Positions 8,869 to 32,056 of a DNA stretch of 38,911 nucleotides are shown one piece after another. Origin of the DNA: Candidatus Saccharimonadota bacterium. Its GTDB lineage: Bacteria > Patescibacteriota > Saccharimonadia > Saccharimonadales > Saccharimonadaceae. Within the stretch, counting starts at the first letter, position 1. Each line of letters begins with the position of its first letter. The position numbers and the translations under genes were made by a program. The notes beneath the pieces were generated by a model. That model was given only the letters and a program-made list of their open reading frames with translations, was not told the DNA's origin and searched no databases. The stretch is from positions 1-38,911 of the forward strand of contig JAUMXN010000006.1 of the NCBI GenBank assembly GCA_030529095.1, written 5' to 3'.

Positions 8869-10424
8869 ATCAAAGAGCCATAGCATACACAAGAGTTTCA
8901 TCTCAACGCCAGGTCGAAGAGGGGAATAGTCTTTCTGTTCAGAAGAAACACATTCTTGAATATGCCGAGAAAAATGGCTTTGAGATTATGAAATTCTTTG
9001 TCGAGCAGGGCGAAAGCGCCAAGAACGCAAACCGCACGCAACTAAAAGCCATGCTCGAATATCTTTACAAGAATCATTCAAAAATTGATGCACTTATTAT
9101 TTATAAGGTGGACCGCCTAGCTCGCAACAATGTCGACTATTACGACATTAAGCAAATCTTAGCTAAGCTCGGCATTCGCTTGTATTCCGTTATGGAGCAA
9201 TTCGACGACGATATTACTGGCCACGCTATGGAAGGCATGCTTTCCATCTTTGCCCAGTTCGACAACGAGAATAGAGCAAAAGTATGCAAGAATGGCATGA
9301 TAGAAGCCGCCAAGAGTGGTAGATACACTAGACCGGCACCAAGAGGCTACAAGAACGGCCGAGACGCCAATAATAAGCCAAACATACTGCTCTCGGACAA
9401 TACTGAGCTTGTAAATGCTCTAGCGGCATCATGGAAGCTAATCGACCATGGGCTATCATGCGCCGATGCTCGCAAGCAAGTCAATGACCGACTAAAAGAA
9501 ATTGGCGAAAGACCAATTACAAAACAAACATTCTCGAATATGATCCATAACGAGATCTATATCGGGATTATTCACGCTTTCGGTTTAACTATAGATAGTC
9601 CAACTATTCCGCATCTTATCGACCGAGATACTTTTTATCGAGTACAAACTATTCTTTCAAAAGAGAAGAAACGAGGCAATCGCTATTCAAAATATAACCC
9701 TCTATATCCATTACGAGGTATTCTATTTTGCAAACATGGCCACAGAATGACCGCAAGCTCACCAAAAGGACGAAACGGCCATTACCCGAAGTATTGTTGC
9801 CAGAAATGCCGAGGCAAAGATGCCGCCAATTACGACGTAGATACGACACATATTAAGTTCGATGAATATATCGAGAACATTACACTCGACCAAGATATCA
9901 AAGATGCACTTATGGAGGCGTTTAAGGTCAATATAGACACTGTAGAACGCAATACTAAGTCAACTATGGACAAACTAAAGAAGCAGTTAGAGAAGATCCA
10001 GACAAATCGGGAGATACTGACCGAGAAGCTCATAAATGGTACTATTCCAGATGCATCTGCTCGCAAGATGTTCGATAAATACGACAAAGATGAACTCGAT
10101 ATCAAGAGCGAATTATTAGAACTTAGAACGCACAATGACGACGCCGAGGAATTGTTAGAACTAGGATTCGATAAACTTACAAATCTCAAACAAACGCTCG
10201 AAGATATCAAAGAGCCAGAAGTTCGATTCAGGTTCCAGAAATGGCTATTTCCAGTCGGGTTGACATATGACGGTGAAAAATTTGGAACCGCCCAAATGCC
10301 ACTCATTTACAGATTAAAAAAGAACACCCTTTCGGGTATTCTTAATCGAACGTCAAATCTGGTGGCTCCGGTCGGACTTGAACCAACGACACAAGGCTCT
10401 TCAGGCCTCTGCTCTACCAACTGA
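8865..10424 (+). CDS. Large serine recombinase (integrase)
   Basis: This protein has 519 residues. The N-terminal resolvase domain (1-150) carries YTRVSS with Ser12 as the likely nucleophile, and KVDRLARN. A recombinase domain (about 160-265) follows, then a zinc ribbon (about 285-316: FCKHGHRM, then CCQKC) and a long coiled coil (about 355-440), the usual large-serine-recombinase layout. The element's integration and excision are its expected job. The 3' end is odd. From about residue 485 the frame runs through a hairpin that is the tRNA-Phe terminator on the other strand, and residues about 499-519 (APVGLEPTTQ and on) are antisense tRNA-Phe. The mature C-terminus is therefore set by the chromosomal target after integration. 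The start is fixed by the ATGA overlap with the small gene. Confidence 0.9.
   Translation: MNQRAIAYTRVSSQRQVEEGNSLSVQKKHILEYAEKNGFEIMKFFVEQGESAKNANRTQLKAMLEYLYKNHSKIDALIIYKVDRLARNNVDYYDIKQILAKLGIRLYSVMEQFDDDITGHAMEGMLSIFAQFDNENRAKVCKNGMIEAAKSGRYTRPAPRGYKNGRDANNKPNILLSDNTELVNALAASWKLIDHGLSCADARKQVNDRLKEIGERPITKQTFSNMIHNEIYIGIIHAFGLTIDSPTIPHLIDRDTFYRVQTILSKEKKRGNRYSKYNPLYPLRGILFCKHGHRMTASSPKGRNGHYPKYCCQKCRGKDAANYDVDTTHIKFDEYIENITLDQDIKDALMEAFKVNIDTVERNTKSTMDKLKKQLEKIQTNREILTEKLINGTIPDASARKMFDKYDKDELDIKSELLELRTHNDDAEELLELGFDKLTNLKQTLEDIKEPEVRFRFQKWLFPVGLTYDGEKFGTAQMPLIYRLKKNTLSGILNRTSNLVAPVGLEPTTQGSSGLCSTN
10315..10343 (-). terminator. tRNA-Phe terminator lying inside the recombinase frame
   Basis: On the minus strand AAGAATACCC-GAAA-GGGTGTTCTT forms a 10-bp stem with one T-G pair and a GAAA tetraloop, followed by a run of six T. 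It sits 16 nt past the tRNA CCA end and within recombinase codons of the opposite strand. Confidence 0.8.
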
Positions 10425-10435
10425 GCTACAGAGCC
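10360..10435 (-). tRNA. tRNA-Phe(GAA)
   Basis: This is a 76-nt complete cloverleaf: acceptor GGCTCTG/CGGAGCC (one T-G pair), D arm GCTCAGTTGGTAGAGC, anticodon stem GAGGC/GCCTT with loop CTGAAGA (anticodon GAA), T arm GTTGG-TTCAAGT-CCGAC and an encoded CCA. G follows the anticodon at position 37, where A is common in tRNA-Phe. The recombinase gene overlaps its 3' two-thirds in antisense. Confidence 0.9.
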
Positions 10436-10477
10436 ACTAAACGTAGTAGCCCTATTATAACATACAATTTTTAGATA

Positions 10478-10492
10478 TGGTATAATTTAAGT
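10478..10492 (+). promoter_or_regulatory. Extended -10 box of hisS, predicted leaderless
   Basis: TGG-TATAAT at 10478-10486 ends 6 nt before the ATG, so the predicted transcription start falls at or next to the start codon. No Shine-Dalgarno sequence is present. Confidence 0.65.
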
Positions 10493-11785
10493 ATGAAAAA
10501 AATTAATACTTCTCCAATTTCTGGTGCCCAAGAGCTCCTACCGGAGCAGCAGGCTACCTTCAACAACCTTAAAAACAAAATCGGGGAAGTTTACCATGCG
10601 CATGGCTTTCTTTCTATCGAAACTCCAACCATCGACCGCACCGAGATTCTCTTTGCCAAAGCTGGTGGCGACACCGAGAAGCAAGTCTACAAAGTTGTGA
10701 AGACCGCTGAGGCTGCCGACGAGGCAGACCAAGCTCTCCGCTTCGACCATACCGTGCCGCTAGCGCGCTACGTCGTCGAACACGAAAGTGATCTGAATTT
10801 TCCATTCAAAGTTACCCAAATCGGCCGCAACTTCCGTGGCGAACGCGCCCAAAAAGGTCGCTTCCGCGAGTTCTATCAGTGCGACGTCGACGTGATTGGT
10901 CGCGGCAATTTGCCACTTAGTTATGATGCAGATGTGATTACTACTTTGCTTGATGCCTTTGCTAAATTTGAACTTGGTACCCCAGTTTTGCCACGCATTA
11001 ATAACCGCAAAATTTTAAACGGTCTTTTGATGGCGCTCGGCCTTAACACCAAGTCCCAAGAAGTTTTTGACGTGATCGACCACGCCGAAAAAGTTCCACT
11101 AGATACTACTAAGGCTAATCTCGAAGCTGCCGGTCTCAACCAAAACGAAATCGGCAAAATTGTTGCCTTTGCTAATCTCCACGGCTCCAGGGATTTTGTG
11201 ATTAAGAATCTCAAGAATCTCGGCATCGAGGATGGTCTTTACAACGAAGGCGTAGACGAGCTCGACATGGTTCTTGGTCTTATCGAAGCCCAAGGCTATC
11301 AACCAGAGGCCGACATGAAAATCGTCCGTGGTCTTGACTATTACACTGGTACCGTCTTTGAATTTGTCTTGCCGGAATACCGCGAGATCGGCTCGGTCTG
11401 CGGCGGTGGTCGCTACGAAAATCTCACTGGTAACTTTACTGAGCAAAAAATGCCTGGCGTGGGCGGCTCAATCGGTCTCACTCGCCTCTTCTATGTCTTG
11501 AACGAGAGTGGCCTCATCAAAAACAAGGTCATTAAACCACTTGATTACGTGATTGCTCCAATTTCCGAAAACGAAGTTGAATATGCTTTCGAAGTCGCTG
11601 GTAAGCTCCGCGAAAAAGGCACCTCGGTAGACATCATCCTAACCGACAAAAAACTCGGCGACAAACTCACCTACGCTGCCAAAATCGCTAAGTACGGTGT
11701 GGTCATCGGCGAAGATGAAGTCAAATCTGGTGCCCTGAAAGCCAAAGACTTCGAAACTGGCGAATCTGCCGATCTAGAAATTTAG
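10493..11785 (+). CDS. hisS: Histidyl-tRNA synthetase
   Basis: This 430-residue class II synthetase attaches histidine to tRNA-His. Motif 2 (about 110-131, GRNFRGERAQKGRFREFYQ), the histidine-specific loops RGLDYYTGTVFE (279-290) and CGGGRYENL (303-311), and motif 3 (GVGGSIGLTRL, from 322) are intact. A normal anticodon-binding domain covers about 340-430. Length is typical. The N-terminus (SGAQELLP) replaces the common RGxxDxLP pattern. It is the first gene after the integrated element, with its own -10 box. One nucleotide separates it from the methyltransferase gene, so they are co-transcribed. Confidence 0.95.
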   Translation: MKKINTSPISGAQELLPEQQATFNNLKNKIGEVYHAHGFLSIETPTIDRTEILFAKAGGDTEKQVYKVVKTAEAADEADQALRFDHTVPLARYVVEHESDLNFPFKVTQIGRNFRGERAQKGRFREFYQCDVDVIGRGNLPLSYDADVITTLLDAFAKFELGTPVLPRINNRKILNGLLMALGLNTKSQEVFDVIDHAEKVPLDTTKANLEAAGLNQNEIGKIVAFANLHGSRDFVIKNLKNLGIEDGLYNEGVDELDMVLGLIEAQGYQPEADMKIVRGLDYYTGTVFEFVLPEYREIGSVCGGGRYENLTGNFTEQKMPGVGGSIGLTRLFYVLNESGLIKNKVIKPLDYVIAPISENEVEYAFEVAGKLREKGTSVDIILTDKKLGDKLTYAAKIAKYGVVIGEDEVKSGALKAKDFETGESADLEI

Positions 11786-25349: not shown

Positions 25350-26069
25350 ATGAGTTCAATGATTGAAGTAAAAAATTTTAAGATGGCCTTTAACGGCAAA
25401 ACCGTCATCAAGGATCTCAGTTTTGAAGTTAAAAAAGGCGAAATTTTTGGTTTGCTGGGCTCTAACGGCTCGGGCAAAACCACCACGATTCGTACGCTTC
25501 TTAATCTGTACGAACCGACCGGCGGCGAACTTTTGATTAACGGCAAACGTTTTGACGCAAATTCCAGCGTTACGGTTGGTTATTTGCCAGAGGAACGCGG
25601 CCTTTATAAAAAAGAGACCGTTATCGACACAATGATTTATTTTGGCGAGCTCAAAGGCCTCAAAGATCCACGTGGCTGGGCGGCAGATTATCTCGAGCGT
25701 GTTGGCTTACTCGCTAAATTAAATGAAAAAACCGAAAAGCTTTCGACTGGCCAACAGCAAAAAGTTCAGCTCGGTATTTGTATGATGAATGACCCGGAGC
25801 TTTTGATCCTGGACGAACCAACCAAGGGTTTTGACCCGGTCAACCGCAAGCTTCTCATGAATATTATCGACGAGCTCCATGCGAAGGGAAGCACGATCAT
25901 CATGATTACCCACTACATGGACGAAGTTGAACGCCTCTGCGACCGCGCGATTCTTTTGAAAGATGGCAAGGCTCACGCTTACGGCACAATCAAAGACATT
26001 AAAAAACAATTTGGCGGCAAGTCGCTCGATGAAATTTTCGTAGAAGTTTATGGAGGTGAAGATGAATAA
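25350..26069 (+). CDS. ABC transporter ATP-binding protein (NatA-like)
   Basis: This 239-residue ATPase has Walker A LLGSNGSGKTTT (Lys43), the signature LSTGQQQKVQLG, Walker B ELLILDEP and the switch histidine in MITHYMD. The C-terminal LDEIFVEVYGG resembles the tails of NatA/DrrA-type exporter ATPases. It powers the permease encoded next, with which it overlaps by 8 nt. Possible cargoes are ions, drugs or lipids. The sequence does not decide among them. An internal ATG at residue 4 is an alternative start, but the promoter distance favours 25350. Confidence 0.9.
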   Translation: MSSMIEVKNFKMAFNGKTVIKDLSFEVKKGEIFGLLGSNGSGKTTTIRTLLNLYEPTGGELLINGKRFDANSSVTVGYLPEERGLYKKETVIDTMIYFGELKGLKDPRGWAADYLERVGLLAKLNEKTEKLSTGQQQKVQLGICMMNDPELLILDEPTKGFDPVNRKLLMNIIDELHAKGSTIIMITHYMDEVERLCDRAILLKDGKAHAYGTIKDIKKQFGGKSLDEIFVEVYGGEDE

Positions 26070-27285
26070 AATTAGAACCGTTTTTAAATTCGAAGTTATT
26101 CGCCAACTCAAAAAACCGACTTTTTGGATTTCGCTGTTATTATTCCCGCTCGGTATCGTCGCGATGCTCGGGCTTTCGGCAATAAACAGCGGCGGCATCG
26201 AAGATACGGTCTCGAACATCAATTTTTCCAACAAAAAAGTCGGTCTTACCGACGACGCTAATTTGCTGAGCGACGAAGTAATCGCTAGCACCGGCATCGA
26301 ATTTACTAAGGTTAAAACCGAAGAAGCTGGTCGCGACATGGTCAAAAACAGCGAACTGGACCTCTATTACTATGTATCCGAAGACTTCGCCGAGAGTCAT
26401 AAAGTTAAAATTTATGACCGCGCGGAGGATACTGGGCTGTTTAATTTTTACTCCATCCCGTTCGCTAGTCTTTTGAAACTCAATGTCTATCAAAAACTTT
26501 CGCCGGAAGAAATCGTCTTGGTTGAAAATACGGTTGATTACGAAACTGTCGACCTCGACGCGAACGGTACGCAGGTTAGTGTGCTAGGCCAAGCTATCGT
26601 GCCAATCGCGATTTTAGGTATCTTCTATATCTTGATTTGTGTGTTCGGTAATCGCCTCACTATGGCTCTGGTGGAAGAAAAAGAGAATCGCATTTCAGAA
26701 ATGATTTTGACCTCCGTCTCGGCCAAAAACCTCGTGATCGGTAAAATTTTGAGTCTTGTCACGCTGGGCTTCATCCAAATTATCGTGTTTGTAATTCCAG
26801 TAATTGCCGCGGTGATTATTTATCGCGACAGCCCAATGGTGGCACCATATCTCGCCATTATTGACCTCGACCCAATTCGCATTATCGGCAATATTCTCCT
26901 ATTATTGATGTCCTACTTTATGTTTGCTGGCGCCTGTATGATGGTCGGCTCGCTTATGCCAACCGCCCGCGACGCCTCGCAATATATTGGTATCGTGATG
27001 ATGGGCGTGGTGATGCCACTGTTCTTTATAAATAATTTCATGACCAGCGATCCGAACCTCGTAACCTACATCTTGTCGTACTTCCCGTTGTCGTCGCCAA
27101 TTGCTCTGATGATGCGAAACGCCTTTGGCAACTTGCCACCGCACGAGCTGCTGCTTGGCATTATCGAGCTCGGCGTGGCTGCGGCCTTTGTGATGCATCT
27201 TACGGTTAAGAGCTTTCAAAAGAATGCAATTAACTTCTCGGTAGTAAAGCCGCATTTTGGCCCGCGCAAAGCTTGGAAAAAATAA
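26062..27285 (+). CDS. ABC-2 type transporter permease (NatB-like)
   Basis: This 407-residue membrane subunit has one N-terminal helix (about 18-38), a large extracytoplasmic domain (about 45-180) and then five or more helices (from about 185). VEEKENRISEMILTSVS is the cytoplasmic coupling region typical of NatB/ABC-2 permeases. The ATG at 26062 follows GGAGGTG by 4 nt and overlaps the ATPase stop. A frame starting at 26050 would begin within the ribosome binding site and is rejected. The basic tail ends in RKAWKK. A two-way terminator follows. Confidence 0.9.
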   Translation: MNKIRTVFKFEVIRQLKKPTFWISLLLFPLGIVAMLGLSAINSGGIEDTVSNINFSNKKVGLTDDANLLSDEVIASTGIEFTKVKTEEAGRDMVKNSELDLYYYVSEDFAESHKVKIYDRAEDTGLFNFYSIPFASLLKLNVYQKLSPEEIVLVENTVDYETVDLDANGTQVSVLGQAIVPIAILGIFYILICVFGNRLTMALVEEKENRISEMILTSVSAKNLVIGKILSLVTLGFIQIIVFVIPVIAAVIIYRDSPMVAPYLAIIDLDPIRIIGNILLLLMSYFMFAGACMMVGSLMPTARDASQYIGIVMMGVVMPLFFINNFMTSDPNLVTYILSYFPLSSPIALMMRNAFGNLPPHELLLGIIELGVAAAFVMHLTVKSFQKNAINFSVVKPHFGPRKAWKK

Positions 27286-27321
27286 AAAAAATGGGCCACT
27301 CAAGCGAGCGGCCCGTTTTTT
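27286..27321. terminator. Bidirectional terminator between the permease gene and an unknown gene
   Basis: GGGCC-a-CTC-AAGC-GAG-c-GGCCC (27293-27314) has A-rich sequence on the left and TTTTTT on the right. The last codons and stop of the minus-strand gene lie within the stem. Confidence 0.8.
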
Positions 27322-27764
27322 GTTTTGTTCATAATCACAGTCTTTTTTCCGGTATGTTTCTGGAGCCAAGCCTCAAGATAAATTCGGCAGTAATCGACCG
27401 CCTCCATCTCCTGTCTCTGCTCCCAAACGTACTCCATCATTTCGATGTGCCTGCGAGCATACTGCTCGCGCTCTGATTCCGGAATGACCCCCCACTCGAG
27501 GAGAATTCTGTCGATTTCTCTTCGACGCGTCGGATCCTTAGGATCCGGCAACGGAACTCCGCAAAACTCAGAGTTTTTATTTCTGAGCACTACCTCATGC
27601 GCTATAGCATAATCGAGGTATTCCTGCGGCGCGCGTTCGTCCACGAAAACAACATTGGCTCCTGGCCCGTAGTTTACTACGTTTATCGTGTGTTCGTTTG
27701 TTCTCTCCGGATCAAATAAAAGCTTCGTGACTGTGATTGTAAACTTTTCGTTAGCAATAACCAT
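27300..27764 (-). CDS. Protein of unknown function
   Basis: This 154-residue protein is not recognised. The N-terminal 60 residues look beta-rich (FTITVTKLLF, then ANVVFVDERAP). The rest is helical and charged (EREQYARRHIEMMEYVWEQRQEMEAVDYC), and there is no membrane segment. The final residues NGPLA and the TGA stop are encoded by the stem of the shared terminator. GGGAGG lies about 9 nt before the ATG. A promoter (TGG-TATAAT, minus strand) and a leader hairpin precede it. It lies between the ABC operon and the four-cassette array, and may belong to the same accessory region. Confidence 0.65.
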   Translation of the reverse strand: MVIANEKFTITVTKLLFDPERTNEHTINVVNYGPGANVVFVDERAPQEYLDYAIAHEVVLRNKNSEFCGVPLPDPKDPTRRREIDRILLEWGVIPESEREQYARRHIEMMEYVWEQRQEMEAVDYCRIYLEAWLQKHTGKKTVIMNKTKNGPLA

Positions 27765-27790
27765 AATGTACGCCCTCCCGATATGTATTT

Positions 27791-27826
27791 GCGCTTTTAG
27801 ATAAGCGCTATCCTATAATTATACCA
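27791..27826 (-). promoter_or_regulatory. Promoter and leader hairpin of the unknown minus-strand gene
   Basis: On the minus strand TGG-TATAAT (27826-27818) precedes GCGCTT/AAGCGC, a 6-bp hairpin at 27808-27791 in the leader. TATAAT also reads on the plus strand at 27814-27819, so the box is nearly symmetrical. Confidence 0.5.
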
Positions 27827-27894
27827 CAAAATACCGAAAAAGTAAATATAAGCGCGAACATAACAGGGGCGTAATTGCCGACGACGGCTTTTTA

Positions 27895-27955
27895 TGTTAT
27901 AGTTTAAAAACAGGATGGGAGCAATTTAATAGGCTAGGCGATTGGCTCCCCTTTT
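27895..27955 (+). promoter_or_regulatory. Cassette A promoter and leader hairpin
   Basis: TGT-TATAGT (27895-27903) is followed by the leader GGATGGGAGC. GGGAGC (27917-27922) pairs with GCTCCC (27945-27950), the inner AAT/ATT pairs extend the stem, and the apical loop holds TAGGCTAGG. CTTTTT follows, so the hairpin could act as an attenuator. TAGGCTAG is complementary to CTAGCCTA at the stop of gene A. Confidence 0.6.
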
Positions 27956-27982
27956 TATTCTTTGTGCAAGGAGGATGTTTGT

Positions 27983-28681
27983 ATGAAAAAAGCGAAGTTA
28001 TTTATTCTTTCCGACCAGTATGACGACGGGGTGTCGCTTGGTATTGGGGCTTTAAAACAAGCCATGGAGTGCCTCAAGAAAAACCTCGAGGCCTGGAAGG
28101 ATGAGATTGGAGACGATTTCGAATGCAAATATGTGCCAGGAGAGGACAACGCTTGCATTCACGACAAAATCTATGACAATTTCTTAGAAATCCATGTTCG
28201 AGATGTGTTGGACGCGAAAGATTTTTTTAAACAGCGGTTTGACATGGTTTGCTCGGGCCCAATGGACCCCTTCAAGTATGAGCTTCACGCCCAGATAAAT
28301 GGACTGGAGGATGCTTTTGGTTTTAAGGATGGTGACTTTGATGAACATGATGATGCAATCATCATAGACTATAGTTGCATGTTTCAAGTCGAAGCACGTA
28401 TTATGCTAGACTATTTGGCAGCAAATTCGATCGAGGATAGCTGGCCGACTGAAGTGATATCGCCACGTATCATTGACGACCCACAGTTGTTGCCGGAAGC
28501 AATCCTGAGGCTCTTGATAAGTTACAAAGTAACGGAGGCTGAACTGGCCGACGCCTATAAATATGGCGACGGCGACTCCGTAACTTTCAATAGTTTGTCC
28601 AATAAATTTGCCAAGTCCGACGACGCCATGGCGTCTTTCTGGAGTTATGTCTTTAAGATTGTTGCAATCGAGCTAGCCTAA
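27983..28681 (+). CDS. Cassette A: unknown protein, related to cassette B
   Basis: This protein has 232 residues, is acidic, and has no signal peptide or membrane helix. The N-terminus KKAKLFILSD is a beta strand like those at the start of the three other cassette proteins. The C-terminal 60 residues (VTEAELAD...FNSLSNKF...WSYVFKIVAIEL) line up with cassette B (VTEEELAN...FNQLANRL...FGYLLKVACIYL), so A and B are paralogues. AAGGAGG lies 8 nt before the ATG. An upstream in-frame ATG at 27962 would overlap the leader and is rejected. The stop TAA lies within the CTAGCCTAACC element complementary to the leader loop. Function unknown. Confidence 0.7.
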   Translation: MKKAKLFILSDQYDDGVSLGIGALKQAMECLKKNLEAWKDEIGDDFECKYVPGEDNACIHDKIYDNFLEIHVRDVLDAKDFFKQRFDMVCSGPMDPFKYELHAQINGLEDAFGFKDGDFDEHDDAIIIDYSCMFQVEARIMLDYLAANSIEDSWPTEVISPRIIDDPQLLPEAILRLLISYKVTEAELADAYKYGDGDSVTFNSLSNKFAKSDDAMASFWSYVFKIVAIELA

Positions 28682-28685
28682 CCAG

Positions 28686-28713
28686 AAGCCACTCTTTACA
28701 GAGTGGCTTTTTT
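28686..28713 (+). terminator. Terminator of cassette A
   Basis: AAGCCACTCT / AGAGTGGCTT is a 10-bp stem with a TTAC loop followed by TTTT. Confidence 0.9.
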
Positions 28714-28717
28714 ATAT

Positions 28718-28783
28718 TATAATATTTTTTAACCGGTGGGAGCAATTTGAAAATTTGGTTAGGGTTTTTGTTCAATGCTGCCG
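28718..28783 (+). promoter_or_regulatory. Cassette B promoter and leader hairpin
   Basis: TATAAT (28718-28723) is followed by GGTGGGAGCA. GGGAGCA (28738-28744) pairs with TGCTGCC (28776-28782) with one G-G mismatch, TTGAA/TTCAA pairs inside, and the apical loop holds TTGGTTAGGG. GGTTAGG-g-TTTTT can pair with AAAAACCTAGCC at the stop of gene B. Confidence 0.6.
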
Positions 28784-28817
28784 TCATATTTACAACAAAA
28801 TCGAAGGGGGAATCAAA

Positions 28818-29489
28818 ATGCCAAAAGTAAAAGTAATCATGTTGGACAACATGATCATGATCAGGGAATTGCCGGAATATTTTGAGAAGGAGATGGACAA
28901 AAGGAACTATATGATTCATGTAGCTCCGAAATGCTTTACGCTCGAAGATTCGCAGAACAATGAAATCGAACTGCTCATGCGGAGCCTGCCAACGCAGTTC
29001 AAGGGCGAACTGGATAAGGTGATCAAAGAGGGTAGTCGTCGTCGTTACAGTGAATCTCCCATGTTTTATCCGTTCATTAAGATCGACGATCTTTATCCGA
29101 AGGCGCTGATGTATTTGGGTCTCGAGCAGTCCGATTTGGAGGGTGACGCTATTATCTTTTGTGTTGGTGACGAAATCACCCCAGACGCCGCTGACCTTTT
29201 GACACTCATGGTAAGGCGCAATAAGCTGGACGCGCTAGTTGCGCTTGTTCATGACGGCTTGGGAAAGACCACGGAAATGGTCAAATCAAACATCGAGATG
29301 CTCATGGATCTCCACGGCGTAACGGAAGAGGAACTTGCCAATCTTGATGATCCAACTAACAGCAGCAATCCTACGCTGCGCGGTTTTAACCAATTGGCCA
29401 ACAGACTGGTCGAAGCGCGCGGTCTCTGGAAATTCGGCTACCTCTTAAAAGTCGCATGCATATACTTGGTCGTTATGAGAAAAACCTAG
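28818..29489 (+). CDS. Cassette B: unknown protein, related to cassette A
   Basis: This protein has 223 residues and no signal peptide. It begins with a beta strand (PKVKVIMLDN) and has a charged helical middle and a C-terminal helical region that aligns with cassette A. GDAIIFCVGDEITPDAADLL corresponds in position to DDAIIIDYSCMF of A. No catalytic motif is recognised. GAAGGGGG lies 7 nt before the ATG. The longer frame starting at 28755 lies in the leader hairpin and is rejected. The stop TAG lies in AAAAACCTAGCC, complementary to the leader loop. The C-terminus RKT resembles the YKT and PKT ends of cassettes C and D, because the shared DNA motif encodes it. Confidence 0.7.
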   Translation: MPKVKVIMLDNMIMIRELPEYFEKEMDKRNYMIHVAPKCFTLEDSQNNEIELLMRSLPTQFKGELDKVIKEGSRRRYSESPMFYPFIKIDDLYPKALMYLGLEQSDLEGDAIIFCVGDEITPDAADLLTLMVRRNKLDALVALVHDGLGKTTEMVKSNIEMLMDLHGVTEEELANLDDPTNSSNPTLRGFNQLANRLVEARGLWKFGYLLKVACIYLVVMRKT

Positions 29490-29493
29490 CCAG

Positions 29494-29520
29494 AAGCCAC
29501 TCTTTTTAGGGTGGCTTTTT
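29494..29520 (+). terminator. Terminator of cassette B
   Basis: AAGCCACTCT / AGGGTGGCTT forms a 10-bp stem with one T-G pair and a T-rich loop, followed by TTTTT. It is nearly the same as the cassette A terminator. Confidence 0.9.
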
Positions 29521-29522
29521 TA

Positions 29523-29581
29523 TGCTATAATGCGGGGCAGGTGGGAGCAGTTTTATAGGTTAGGTATCGGCTCCCGATTTT
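29523..29581 (+). promoter_or_regulatory. Cassette C promoter and leader hairpin
   Basis: TGC-TATAAT (29523-29531) precedes AGGTGGGAGC. GGGAGC (29543-29548) pairs with GCTCCC (29570-29575), ATA/TAT pairs around the apical GGTTAGG, and GATTTTTG follows. TAGGTTAGGT (29556-29565) is perfectly complementary to ACCTAACCTA (30235-30244) at the stop of gene C. Confidence 0.65.
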
Positions 29582-29613
29582 TGACTTTTACGCACGGAAT
29601 AGGAGGGGTTAAT

Positions 29614-30240
29614 ATGAAAAAGATTTCCGTAGTTATTATCAAAGACGTGCACGAAAAACCGTTTTATGTTGAAGATTTTTTCGAATTGGGTAAGCCGCCG
29701 ATGTTTTTGGGGTTTTCGTCCGGCAAGGGGGATGGTCGATATTTCATTTGCAGCGGCAATACCGCTATCGTCGTTCATGAGCGGCACCTCGATTGCCAGC
29801 GCAAAGGGCAGACCGAAGAAGAGGTCGCAGCTATGGCTCGAGCCAATCTAGTGTATTTTAATCTGGCGGCCGAGCAACTGGGGCTTTATAAGACCGAGAT
29901 GGATCCGTATTCTAGGGTTATTTACATCTGTGCTACGCCATCCGACGAGCTGAATAAGAAGCTTAGGGATTTGTTTAGCCGCTACTGCGAAGCATATAGC
30001 AAGGTTCCGTACGAAGTTTTTACTCTGCACGATATGATCGGCGATGGCGACAAGTCTCAGCTTGCAAAAATTGCAGCTTTCCCGAGGCAAAAAATAGAGA
30101 TGGATTACAACGTCAACGAAAGAGAGCTGGACAAAAAGCTCGAAGATCTCGGCGTCAAAGTTCTGCCAAAGAATCTGTTGCTTGGCTCAATTATGCTTTG
30201 CGCCACTTCGCTGGCGGTTGCCGAACCTTACAAAACCTAA
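29614..30240 (+). CDS. Cassette C: unknown protein, paralogue of cassette D
   Basis: This protein has 208 residues. It begins with a beta strand (KKISVVIIKD). From residue about 80 it aligns clearly with cassette D: LGLYKTEM...RVIYICATPSDELNKKLRDLF...VPYEVFTLHD against LGLYRTEL...RVIYVCDTGDKELDQKLKELL...VPYAVFAYDD. Both end in LGS(I/L)...VAEPxKT. The P-loop of D is not present here. No membrane segment or secretion signal is seen. AGGAGGGG lies 5 nt before the ATG at 29614, and a longer frame from 29530 lies in the leader. The stop TAA is within the element complementary to the leader loop. Function unknown, though the repeated strand-helix pattern suggests a nucleotide- or ligand-binding alpha/beta fold. 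Confidence 0.7.
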   Translation: MKKISVVIIKDVHEKPFYVEDFFELGKPPMFLGFSSGKGDGRYFICSGNTAIVVHERHLDCQRKGQTEEEVAAMARANLVYFNLAAEQLGLYKTEMDPYSRVIYICATPSDELNKKLRDLFSRYCEAYSKVPYEVFTLHDMIGDGDKSQLAKIAAFPRQKIEMDYNVNERELDKKLEDLGVKVLPKNLLLGSIMLCATSLAVAEPYKT

Positions 30241-30245
30241 CCTAG

Positions 30246-30270
30246 AGCCACCCCGTGCGGGTGGCTTTTT
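30246..30270 (+). terminator. Terminator of cassette C
   Basis: AGCCACCC / GGGTGGCT is an 8-bp stem followed by TTTT. The stem differs from the A and B terminators by compensating changes. Confidence 0.9.
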
Positions 30271-30278
30271 CTTTAGCT

Positions 30279-30365
30279 TTGTAATTTTTAAGATTTTATT
30301 TTATAATACATACTATTGGTGGGAGTAAATTAAAAATTGGTTAGGTTTTTTAATGGACTGCCACC
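30279..30365 (+). promoter_or_regulatory. Cassette D promoter and leader hairpin
   Basis: TTGTAA (30279-30284), a 17-bp spacer and TATAAT (30302-30307) form the promoter. GGTGGGAGT (30318-30326) pairs with ACTGCCACC (30357-30365) with one G-G mismatch. ATTAAAAA (30329-30336) pairs perfectly with TTTTTAAT (30347-30354), leaving the loop TTGGTTAGGT. GTTAGGTTTTT is perfectly complementary to AAAAACCTAAC (31045-31055) at the stop of gene D. Confidence 0.7.
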
Positions 30366-30400
30366 GGCATACTCAAAATTCAAAAATAAGGGGGATACAT

Positions 30401-31054
30401 ATGGGCGATGTAAAAATAGTTTTTATCGGGAAAACGAACTCAGGAAAAACGACGTTCACGAAGCTCTTGACGGACGCAGAAGCACACGCTAGTTTCTTTG
30501 ATAATTTAAATGTCGATATTGGAAGGTTTGCTATCACGATGACGGAGTATGACCTTCCGTTTGATTATTATGCGCCAGGTAAAACAGTCGTATTCAGAGG
30601 AAAAAGCCTCGAAGAGCGCAGTACGGAGAAAATTCTGGAAGACGTCTCACTGATGCTCCAGGCCGGTGTGGTGCACCTGAATACTACGGCTAGAGATCTA
30701 GGCCTATACAGAACCGAGCTGGTGTTTAACGAGAGAGTTATCTACGTCTGCGATACTGGAGATAAGGAATTAGACCAAAAGCTCAAGGAGCTGCTCGAGC
30801 AATATTATTGCAAATATGCCGAGGTTCCGTATGCTGTATTTGCGTATGACGACGTGGTGGACCGCACAGCAGAACCCATTAGGACTGTTCCTCATGCAAA
30901 AAAGATGGTCGATGCGAAATACAAAATCTACTACGACTGTATCGCTAAAGGCATTGAACGAGCAGGGTATTTAATGCTCACGAAAAATGAACTTTTCGGC
31001 TCGCTTTTGCTCGCTGCGGTTGATTTGATGGTGGCAGAGCCACCAAAAACCTAA
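30401..31054 (+). CDS. Cassette D: unknown P-loop protein, paralogue of cassette C
   Basis: This protein has 217 residues. The N-terminus VKIVFIGKTNSGKTTFTKLL has a Walker A motif (GKTNSGKT) directly after the first beta strand, as in small GTPase-like or kinase-like P-loop proteins. No clear switch or NKxD motif follows, so nucleotide hydrolysis is uncertain. Residues 95-160 and the C-terminus align with cassette C. No signal peptide is present. GGGGGA lies about 6 nt before the ATG at 30401. The 30353 frame starts in the leader and is rejected. The stop TAA lies in AAAAACCTAAC, complementary to the leader loop. Function unknown. Confidence 0.7.
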   Translation: MGDVKIVFIGKTNSGKTTFTKLLTDAEAHASFFDNLNVDIGRFAITMTEYDLPFDYYAPGKTVVFRGKSLEERSTEKILEDVSLMLQAGVVHLNTTARDLGLYRTELVFNERVIYVCDTGDKELDQKLKELLEQYYCKYAEVPYAVFAYDDVVDRTAEPIRTVPHAKKMVDAKYKIYYDCIAKGIERAGYLMLTKNELFGSLLLAAVDLMVAEPPKT

Positions 31055-31062
31055 CTCGATTA

Positions 31063-31088
31063 GGCTTCCCTTTACGGGGGGCCTTTTT
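31063..31088 (+). terminator. Terminator of cassette D
   Basis: GGCTTCCC / GGGGGGCC forms an 8-bp stem with two T-G pairs, followed by TTTTT. Confidence 0.85.
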
Positions 31089-31093
31089 GATGG

Positions 31094-31105
31094 TATGATA
31101 TAAAA
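31094..31105 (+). promoter_or_regulatory. -10 box of dus, predicted leaderless
   Basis: TGG-TATGAT (31091-31099) ends 6 nt before the ATG. It overlaps the tail of the cassette D terminator region. Confidence 0.5.
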
Positions 31106-32056
31106 ATGAATATTTGGCAAGAGCTACCACGTCCGTTTCTGATTTTGGCGCCGATGGAGGGCGTCACTGATTTGGCGTTCCGCCAGGTCATCGCCAAGGC
31201 CGGCCGCCCAGATCTTTTTTATACCGAATTTACGAATGTTTCTAGCTACGCCTCCGAAAAAGGTCGCCACAATGCGCTGGAGCGCCTAGAGATTGCCGAT
31301 TTTGACAAGCCAATCATCGCCCAAATTTGGGGCAAAAACCCGGATCATTTTTCGGAACTTTCTGGTGCTTTGGAATCACTTGGCTTTGCCGGCGTGGATC
31401 TCAACTTTGGCTGCCCAGATAAGCATGTCAACAAGGCTGGTGGTGGTGCCGCGATGATAAAAACTCCGGAGCTTGCCGTAGATTGCTATCGCAAAGTCAA
31501 GGCTGCGACTTCGCTTCCGGTCTCGATTAAGACTCGCCTCGGATTTTCTTTTGTCGACGAATATAAGACTTGGCCCCCAACCCTACTCGCCGAGCATCCG
31601 GCCGCCCTTACTGTGCACCTGCGCACCCGCAAGGAAATGTCCAAAGTCGACGCTCACTATGAGCTGATCCCAGAGATTTTAAAGATGCGCGCCGAGATTT
31701 CGCCAGAGACCAAGTTGATTATTAATGGCGATATTAAGGACCGCACGGCTGCTTTGGAGCTGCACGCTAAATACCCGGAAATCGATGGTTTTATGATTGG
31801 CCGCGGCGTTTTTACGAACCCGTATTGTTTTACGGACCATACCGCCACTCGCGAGGAGCTAATGGAGCTTTTGAACTTGCACCTAGATTTGTATGAGGAG
31901 CAAATGGCTCTGCACGGCTTGCCGTACGAGCCACTCAAACACTATTACAAGATTTATATTAATAATTTCCCGGGTGCCTCGGACCTCCGCGCGCGCTTGA
32001 TGGAAACTCACTCCGTGGCCGAAGCTAGGGAAGTGCTAAGCCAGACTCTGCTATAA
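31106..32056 (+). CDS. dus: tRNA-dihydrouridine synthase
   Basis: This 316-residue FMN enzyme reduces uridine to dihydrouridine in tRNA. The (beta/alpha)8 barrel starts with LAPMEGVTDLAFR, and the catalytic cysteine is Cys103 in NFGCPDKHVNKAGGGAAM. FMN-binding segments SIKTRLGF and INGDI, with DGFMIGRG further on, are present, and a helical C-terminal domain completes the protein. Length is typical. The subfamily (DusA/B/C) is not clear. The TAA stop is part of the -10 box of the next gene. Confidence 0.9.
   Translation: MNIWQELPRPFLILAPMEGVTDLAFRQVIAKAGRPDLFYTEFTNVSSYASEKGRHNALERLEIADFDKPIIAQIWGKNPDHFSELSGALESLGFAGVDLNFGCPDKHVNKAGGGAAMIKTPELAVDCYRKVKAATSLPVSIKTRLGFSFVDEYKTWPPTLLAEHPAALTVHLRTRKEMSKVDAHYELIPEILKMRAEISPETKLIINGDIKDRTAALELHAKYPEIDGFMIGRGVFTNPYCFTDHTATREELMELLNLHLDLYEEQMALHGLPYEPLKHYYKIYINNFPGASDLRARLMETHSVAEAREVLSQTLL

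Follow-up and report, generated by a model that had tools for sequence, protein, structure and literature searches.

Leader elements complementary to the stop-codon region of their own transcript in a Saccharibacteria gene array and in unrelated genes of the same genus: a probable end-to-end mRNA helix

In several bacterial mRNAs, the two ends of one transcript pair with each other. In the icaR mRNA of Staphylococcus aureus, a C-rich UCCCC element of the 3' untranslated region (UTR), resembling an anti-Shine-Dalgarno (anti-SD) sequence, pairs with the 5' UTR of the same molecule (PMC3868564, PMC7821165). PMC7821165 also describes a 14-nt helix between the 5' and 3' UTRs of the Bacillus subtilis hbs mRNA, tied to stability and initiation and protecting against RNase Y, and a validated long-range 5'-3' pairing in a coding RNA, S. 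aureus RNAIII (A24-G30 with U452-458). The ends of the hok and aapA1/aapA3 type I toxin mRNAs also pair, and these messages, which have antisense RNAs, are translationally inert until 3' processing (PMC6733600); coupled nucleotide covariations served as evidence for such pairing (Gultyaev 1997, cited in PMC6733600). A 2021 review stated that the applicability of the 5'-3' UTR mechanism to other genes still needs investigation (PMC7821165). Here we analyze a 38,911-nt stretch of DNA from a Candidatus Saccharimonadota bacterium (the window; contig 6 of a 623 kb genome, JAUMXN010000006.1), in which four consecutive transcription units, A-D, have leaders complementary to the stop-codon regions of their own genes. 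We consider it probable, with considerable room for doubt, that this complementarity represents a selected long-range RNA helix in cis, joining the 5' leader to its own stop region in a closed-loop or panhandle mRNA.

The four units lie between an ABC-2 transporter gene, with a divergent 154-aa gene beside it, and a Dus gene. In each, a -10 element and a leader precede a gene of 208-232 aa, whose stop codon lies within CCTARCC and is followed by a terminator hairpin, all on the plus strand. Leader A (27917-27950) contains the motif TGGGAGCAATTTAATA and the hairpin GGGAGC/GCTCCC, and its loop element TAGGCTAG (27930-27937) is complementary to CTAGCCTA (28673-28680), which holds the TAA stop. 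The leader B hairpin (28735-28785) contains GGTGGGAGCAATTTGAAAA, and its loop element GGTTAGGGTTTTT (28757-28769) matches AAAAACCTAGCC (29480-29491), with the TAG stop inside, with one bulge and one G-U pair. In unit C, the hairpin TGGGAGC/GGCTCCC (29542-29576) presents TAGGTTAGGT (29556-29565), complementary to ACCTAACCTA (30235-30244), and in unit D a long hairpin (30317-30366) presents GTTAGGTTTTT (30340-30350), complementary to AAAAACCTAAC (31045-31055); both stop elements enclose a TAA stop, and the D pairing is extended outward by AATTG/CGATT. These are the four complementarities given in the preliminary description, and the stop codon indeed lies within the complementary element in all four. 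Their placement in the apical loop needs qualification, as the B and D matches continue from the apical loop into the 3' strand of the hairpin. The leader hairpin alone was rejected as the selected structure, its z-scores being weak except for D (-4.2 against shuffles) and the D orthologue described below.

Within the window, own pairing scored 102 and swapped pairing 92 ± 5.6 (four cassettes, p=0.085). The difference is not significant because the core GGYTAGG/CCTARCC is common to the cassettes; exchanging the stops of A and B leaves a perfect fit over 7 bp for either loop. The window alone is therefore no proof of cassette-specific pairing, and the corresponding claim of the preliminary description holds only once relatives are added. 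Two genomes of the same genus, G264 and G349, have the same array: G264 a syntenic one of six operons with the same flanking genes, and G349 a single D orthologue. The pattern recurs in most of their units, using the stop of the operon's last gene, and is weakest in G264 operon 5. Across the 11 array units of the three genomes, own pairing exceeds swapped pairing (p=4e-4), and array units exceed 135 control genes (Mann-Whitney p=6e-7, the units being paralogous and not independent). Matched departures from the consensus occur in G264 operon 3, with leader GGTTAGATT and stop AATCTAACC (GGTTAGA/TCTAACC), and in operon 4, with GTGCTA(A)GGGC/GCCCTAGCAC. In the D orthologue of G349, the leader element is identical and the stop element changes from CGATT to CAATT, which replaces a G-U pair by A-U.

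A sequence model of the leader was built and then used to find the same leader start elsewhere in the genus. The start TATAAT-N-GGTGGGAGYANNTTAANA (pattern TATAAT-N5-18-TGGGAGNANNTTNA) was found in 47 of the 174 genomes of the genus and once in the controls; the search required TATAAT, several genomes are incomplete, and start codons and operon ends were chosen by script. In a family-wide sample, the motif occurred in 22 of 295 genomes, nearly all of its own genus, and in 4 of 61 genera. The shared start of the transcript leader is GGUGGGAGYANNUUAANA. The motif-led genes are unrelated to the array and mostly HD-domain nucleotidase-like, including YfbR-like HD-domain proteins; judging by their sequences, others probably encode SpoT-like HD proteins, PgsA and further products. 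In most, the Shine-Dalgarno (SD) sequence comes directly after the 5' motif, which is complementary to the nucleotides immediately following the stop codon. The usual form has the 5' end GGTGGGAG complementary to CTCCCACC just past the stop codon; as RNA, the 5'-terminal GGUGGGAG matches CUCCCACC, 0-10 nt past the stop codon.

Compensatory changes in this pairing include GATGGGAG/CTCCCATC, CCTGGGA/TCCCAGG (in L112) and TCTGGGAG/CTCCCAGA, and G-U wobbles occur too. Further pairs are TAAGATGGGAGC/GCTCCCATCTTA in L132, GGATGGGAGT/ACTCCCATCC in L128, TTCTGGGAG/CTCCCAGAA in L144, and AGGTGGGAGT/ACTTCCACCT in L130, the last with one G-U. Some units with longer leaders instead use the element after TTAANA, as in the window array. 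Among independent genes, the pairing GTCTACTCTA/TAGAGTAGAC spans the stop codon in L134, AAGCATC/GATGCTT reaches into it in L133, and 15 bp start inside or just past it in L129. In leader hairpins A-D, GGTGGGAG is paired inside the leader and the second element is exposed. The window array reads as a variant of the genus-wide form, in which the second leader element after UUAANA (GGYUAGG) would pair with the stop-containing CCUARCC.

Own pairing exceeded swapped pairing across the 40 genus-wide motif units (z 5.7-6.5) and across all 51 units (z=8.5, p=5e-5). The excess was retained with one unit per protein family (permutation, median p=0.004) and within the HD family (11 proteins of about 20-50% identity, p=0.001). 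On contig C4 of G264, 74 TATAAT-led units outside this set were examined for a genome-wide effect, and none was seen (z 0.45). For covariation, the alignment register was fixed only on the invariant core TGGGAG, and 47 of 87 flank cells were paired against 32 ± 3.5 in swapped combinations (p=5e-5). Direct pair counting gave 88.4% of cells paired, against 44-53% in slid-register controls, with replacement of GC by AU, CG and UA pairs and 12 cells changed on both sides against 2.9 in shuffles; the fixed-register flank test is the unbiased version, because the pair-count alignment took the best register per unit. Four departures occur at the three interior G columns, and in three of them C is replaced by T, which preserves a G-U pair. 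Over whole 9-nt windows, G-U and A-C counts were uninformative (9 and 9); a wobble preference is seen at the interior columns only. The preliminary description had proposed selected pairing of leader and stop region within a cassette and had named two tests of it; with relatives included the proposal passes both, as compensatory changes were found in array relatives and genus-wide units, and own pairing beats that with other units. The spread across the genus, and the commoner form that uses the very 5' end and the bases past the stop codon, lay outside the view of that description.

The leader and stop motifs might each be conserved separately, for example as the site of one regulator, and be complementary by chance. 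The leader motif GGTGGGAGYANNTTAA is indeed conserved as sequence even where it is unpaired with the 3' end. This explanation seems very improbable given the compensatory changes in gene-specific flanks under the fixed register, and given that unrelated sequences still match (L129, L134 and G264 operon 4).

The window array and its genus-wide relatives share with icaR, hbs and RNAIII a complementarity between 5' UTR and 3' end beyond chance, together with compensatory changes in homologues. As in icaR, a 3' element is complementary to the 5' UTR of the same mRNA; icaR is one gene with a long 3' UTR and a ribosome-binding site as target, whereas in the present family one 5' leader motif is common to many genes, the 3' element adjoins the stop codon or extends across it, and its pairing is strongest with the 5' end of the mRNA. 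The hbs mRNA is likewise a single gene without a motif common to several genes, and the likeness lies in the tie between stability and initiation. RNAIII is a regulatory RNA whose pairing lies away from the stop codon. With hok and aapA the likeness is that the 5' and 3' ends of small mRNAs pair and that covariation serves as evidence, but the genes here are longer and enzyme-like (208-232 aa in the array, HD-domain elsewhere), not short hydrophobic toxins, and they are not known to have an antisense RNA. What is new is that many unrelated genes carry one leader motif and private stop-codon complements, the bacterial cases known so far being confined to individual genes and small toxin families. 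Searches of the open-access literature gave no report of this kind of motif in Saccharibacteria, and a scan of the window against Rfam gave no match above the gathering score except one tRNA, and no described riboswitch or leader family.

Unconstrained minimum free energy (MFE) structures of whole mRNAs contained at least 6 pairs between the 5' end and the stop region in 35 of 42 units, compared with 55 of 126 with shuffled leaders. The stop region was paired with the 5' motif in 27 of the 42 structures and with the SD in 7; among the window cassettes, SD pairing with the stop region appeared in D only. The SD figure bears on the main rival explanation, translational repression of the icaR/hok/aapA kind, in which a post-stop anti-SD would shut the start and the 5' motif GGUGGGAG would act as a decoy partner, forming a switch. 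Its weight comes from the frequent complementarity of these post-stop bases to the SD region (z 4.3 for own against swapped pairs; p=0.0015 within the HD family), as in L085 with GAGTTGATTTAT/ATAAATCTACTC; in addition CUCCC resembles an anti-SD, and G264 leader 6 folds with its SD covered. SD pairing is nevertheless weaker than 5'-end pairing over all units, also when each family contributes a single unit (median p 0.044 against 0.004), and the paired element of the array is situated some 45-60 nt before the start codon. We regard repression as unlikely, while giving it real weight. Neither partner reached significance in a family-level Wilcoxon test over 18 families, among which were many singletons whose gene ends are uncertain.

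Both strands of the putative helix lie between the inferred transcription start and the terminator. The 5' strand coincides with the expected first nucleotide or lies very close to it (about 7-17 nt past the -10 element). The 3' strand is beside the terminator hairpin and either overlaps the stop codon or lies no more than about 15 nt from it, where a terminating ribosome would cover it. Since both strands are transcribed, wobbles are tolerated and own pairing beats swapped pairing, RNA pairing in cis is supported; the position of the strands at the first nucleotide and under the terminating ribosome favors a panhandle opened by the ribosome. Among the functions offered in the preliminary description, mRNA circularization or a link between termination and initiation fits best, and its working may be envisaged as follows. 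When few ribosomes reach the stop codon, the helix would form in the cell, shielding the 5' end from 5'-dependent decay and keeping the initiation region beside the site of termination. A terminating ribosome would cover the 3' strand and open the helix, such that 5'-end access, stability and re-initiation would track translation of the message; the net effect could be protective or repressive. In the window array, GGTGGGAG would be held in the leader hairpin, and the exposed second element would take over the pairing with the stop.

Along with the window-only comparison and the SD complementarity, several observations weigh against a selected cis helix. The units are partly related by descent, 11 of the 40 motif units are without a good post-stop match, and in some units the pairing is just 7-9 bp. 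In the MFE structures of W_D and H_D, the leader hairpin is kept and the long-range helix is not formed.

More tentatively, and at somewhat less than an even chance, these transcripts may constitute a genus-wide class of closed-loop mRNAs, in which one conserved 5'-end motif allows each of many unrelated messages to acquire its own complement at the stop codon. The terminating ribosome itself would act as the sensor, and by opening the loop would link termination to re-initiation and to the accessibility of the 5' end. Such a class, if real, would parallel the closed loop of eukaryotes but do without protein. A Saccharibacteria genus with very small genomes appears to use 5'-3' pairing for many unrelated genes. 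It supplies dozens of naturally occurring pairs for testing, and the rule of a private complement at the stop codon can be searched for to learn how frequent closed-loop mRNAs are in bacteria.

The shared core would also permit pairing in trans, in which the 3' end, or a short RNA derived from it, would bind and regulate, in antisense fashion, the leader of a different copy or a sister cassette. The 7-bp cross-fits between A and B and the attenuator-like U-tracts after leader hairpins A and C and that of G264 operon 6 are compatible with such a role. The excess of own over swapped pairing is not required by trans pairing in an array, and single genes elsewhere show the pairing too, making this reading improbable. 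The same U-tracts bear on attenuation, which the preliminary description had also offered: it suits these three leaders, and as a reading for all cassettes it was rejected, there being no U-tract after the B and D hairpins.

Integron cassettes carry short inverted elements at the 5' start and at the stop end that are cassette-matched. The inverted repeats of the array might function at the DNA level as recombination sites, whether as integron-like attC sites, as terminal inverted repeats or in invertible cassettes. Most array units agree with the attC consensus RYYYAAC/GTTRRRY, through ACCTAAC at the stop and GTTAGGT in the loop, and the locus upstream of Dus is hypervariable. An integron array requires an integron-integrase gene or clear attC hairpins, and neither was found: each of the three genomes has one tyrosine recombinase gene, a 318-codon open frame in all three that is read as XerC/D-type, and the intergenic DNA does not fold as a single attC hairpin. 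Unlike integron cassettes, each unit here has its own promoter and terminator. Comparison of filled and empty sites upstream of Dus places the boundaries of the inserted unit at the promoter and terminator, outside both repeats; cassette movement by way of the repeats, as suggested in the preliminary description, was rejected. A stretch of 26 nt upstream of the would-be crossover is common to the D orthologues, no inverted cassettes were seen in the three genomes, and the interior wobble pairs also count against a DNA-level function, which is the least credible of the explanations weighed here. An intergenic inverted repeat formed with the leader of the next cassette was tried as well; it is comparable for the shared cores and clearly worse for G264 operons 4 and 5.

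The genes of the array are A (232 aa, 27983-28681), B (223 aa, 28818-29489), C (208 aa, 29614-30240) and D (217 aa, 30401-31054). They encode distant paralogues, with 11-30% identity to D, that are predicted to adopt a globular alpha/beta fold. Protein D contains the P-loop GKTNSGKTT and has a small-GTPase-like predicted fold, the match being weak (Foldseek best E 2.8e-3, VIA Z 6.9); a structural search with an array protein gave no match above noise. The array-family profile matches in only 3 of 394 family genomes, and no close relatives of D were found in viral contigs or in 294 other family genomes. The array paralogues (window 27983-31054, L036 and L042) appear to evolve fast. Inside the G264 array (L036, reverse complement, 10005-11536) are three smaller proteins of a second family, beginning MGNVYSVVV, MGKVYTIEV and MKKIHIVEG, whose genes have leaders without GGTGGGAG. 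Elsewhere in G264, two units without the motif (contig C4, 244970-245437 and 238462-238935) show leader/post-stop complementarity, GGAATGTT/AACATTCC and TTGCTTAGG/CCTAAGCAA.

The array is flanked upstream by the ABC-2 transporter gene (26050-27285) and downstream by the Dus gene (31106-32056). The divergent 154-aa gene (27300-27764, minus strand) is found beside the array in each of the three genomes that have one, its homologues being in L036 and L042, and is a possible partner; it has no Pfam family match. The site upstream of Dus (about 27300-31100 in the window) is hypervariable among 20 relatives (L039-L058): some species have arrays there, others a 281-aa motif-led gene or further unrelated genes, and some have nothing. 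In G356 the site holds a 127-aa gene (L041, 14767-15150) that by eye resembles a tRNase-type toxin domain.

The -10 elements are TATAGT in cassette A (27898-27903) and TATAAT in B (28718-28723), C (29526-29531) and D (30302-30307). Intrinsic terminators are predicted from the sequence at 28686-28715 in A (repeat I3/D2), 29494-29520 in B, 30246-30270 in C and 31063-31089 in D. The arrangement between cassettes is very compact: at 28700-28723 and 29510-29531, and in relatives, the U-tract of the terminator passes straight into the next extended -10 promoter (GGCTTTTTTATGCTATAAT).

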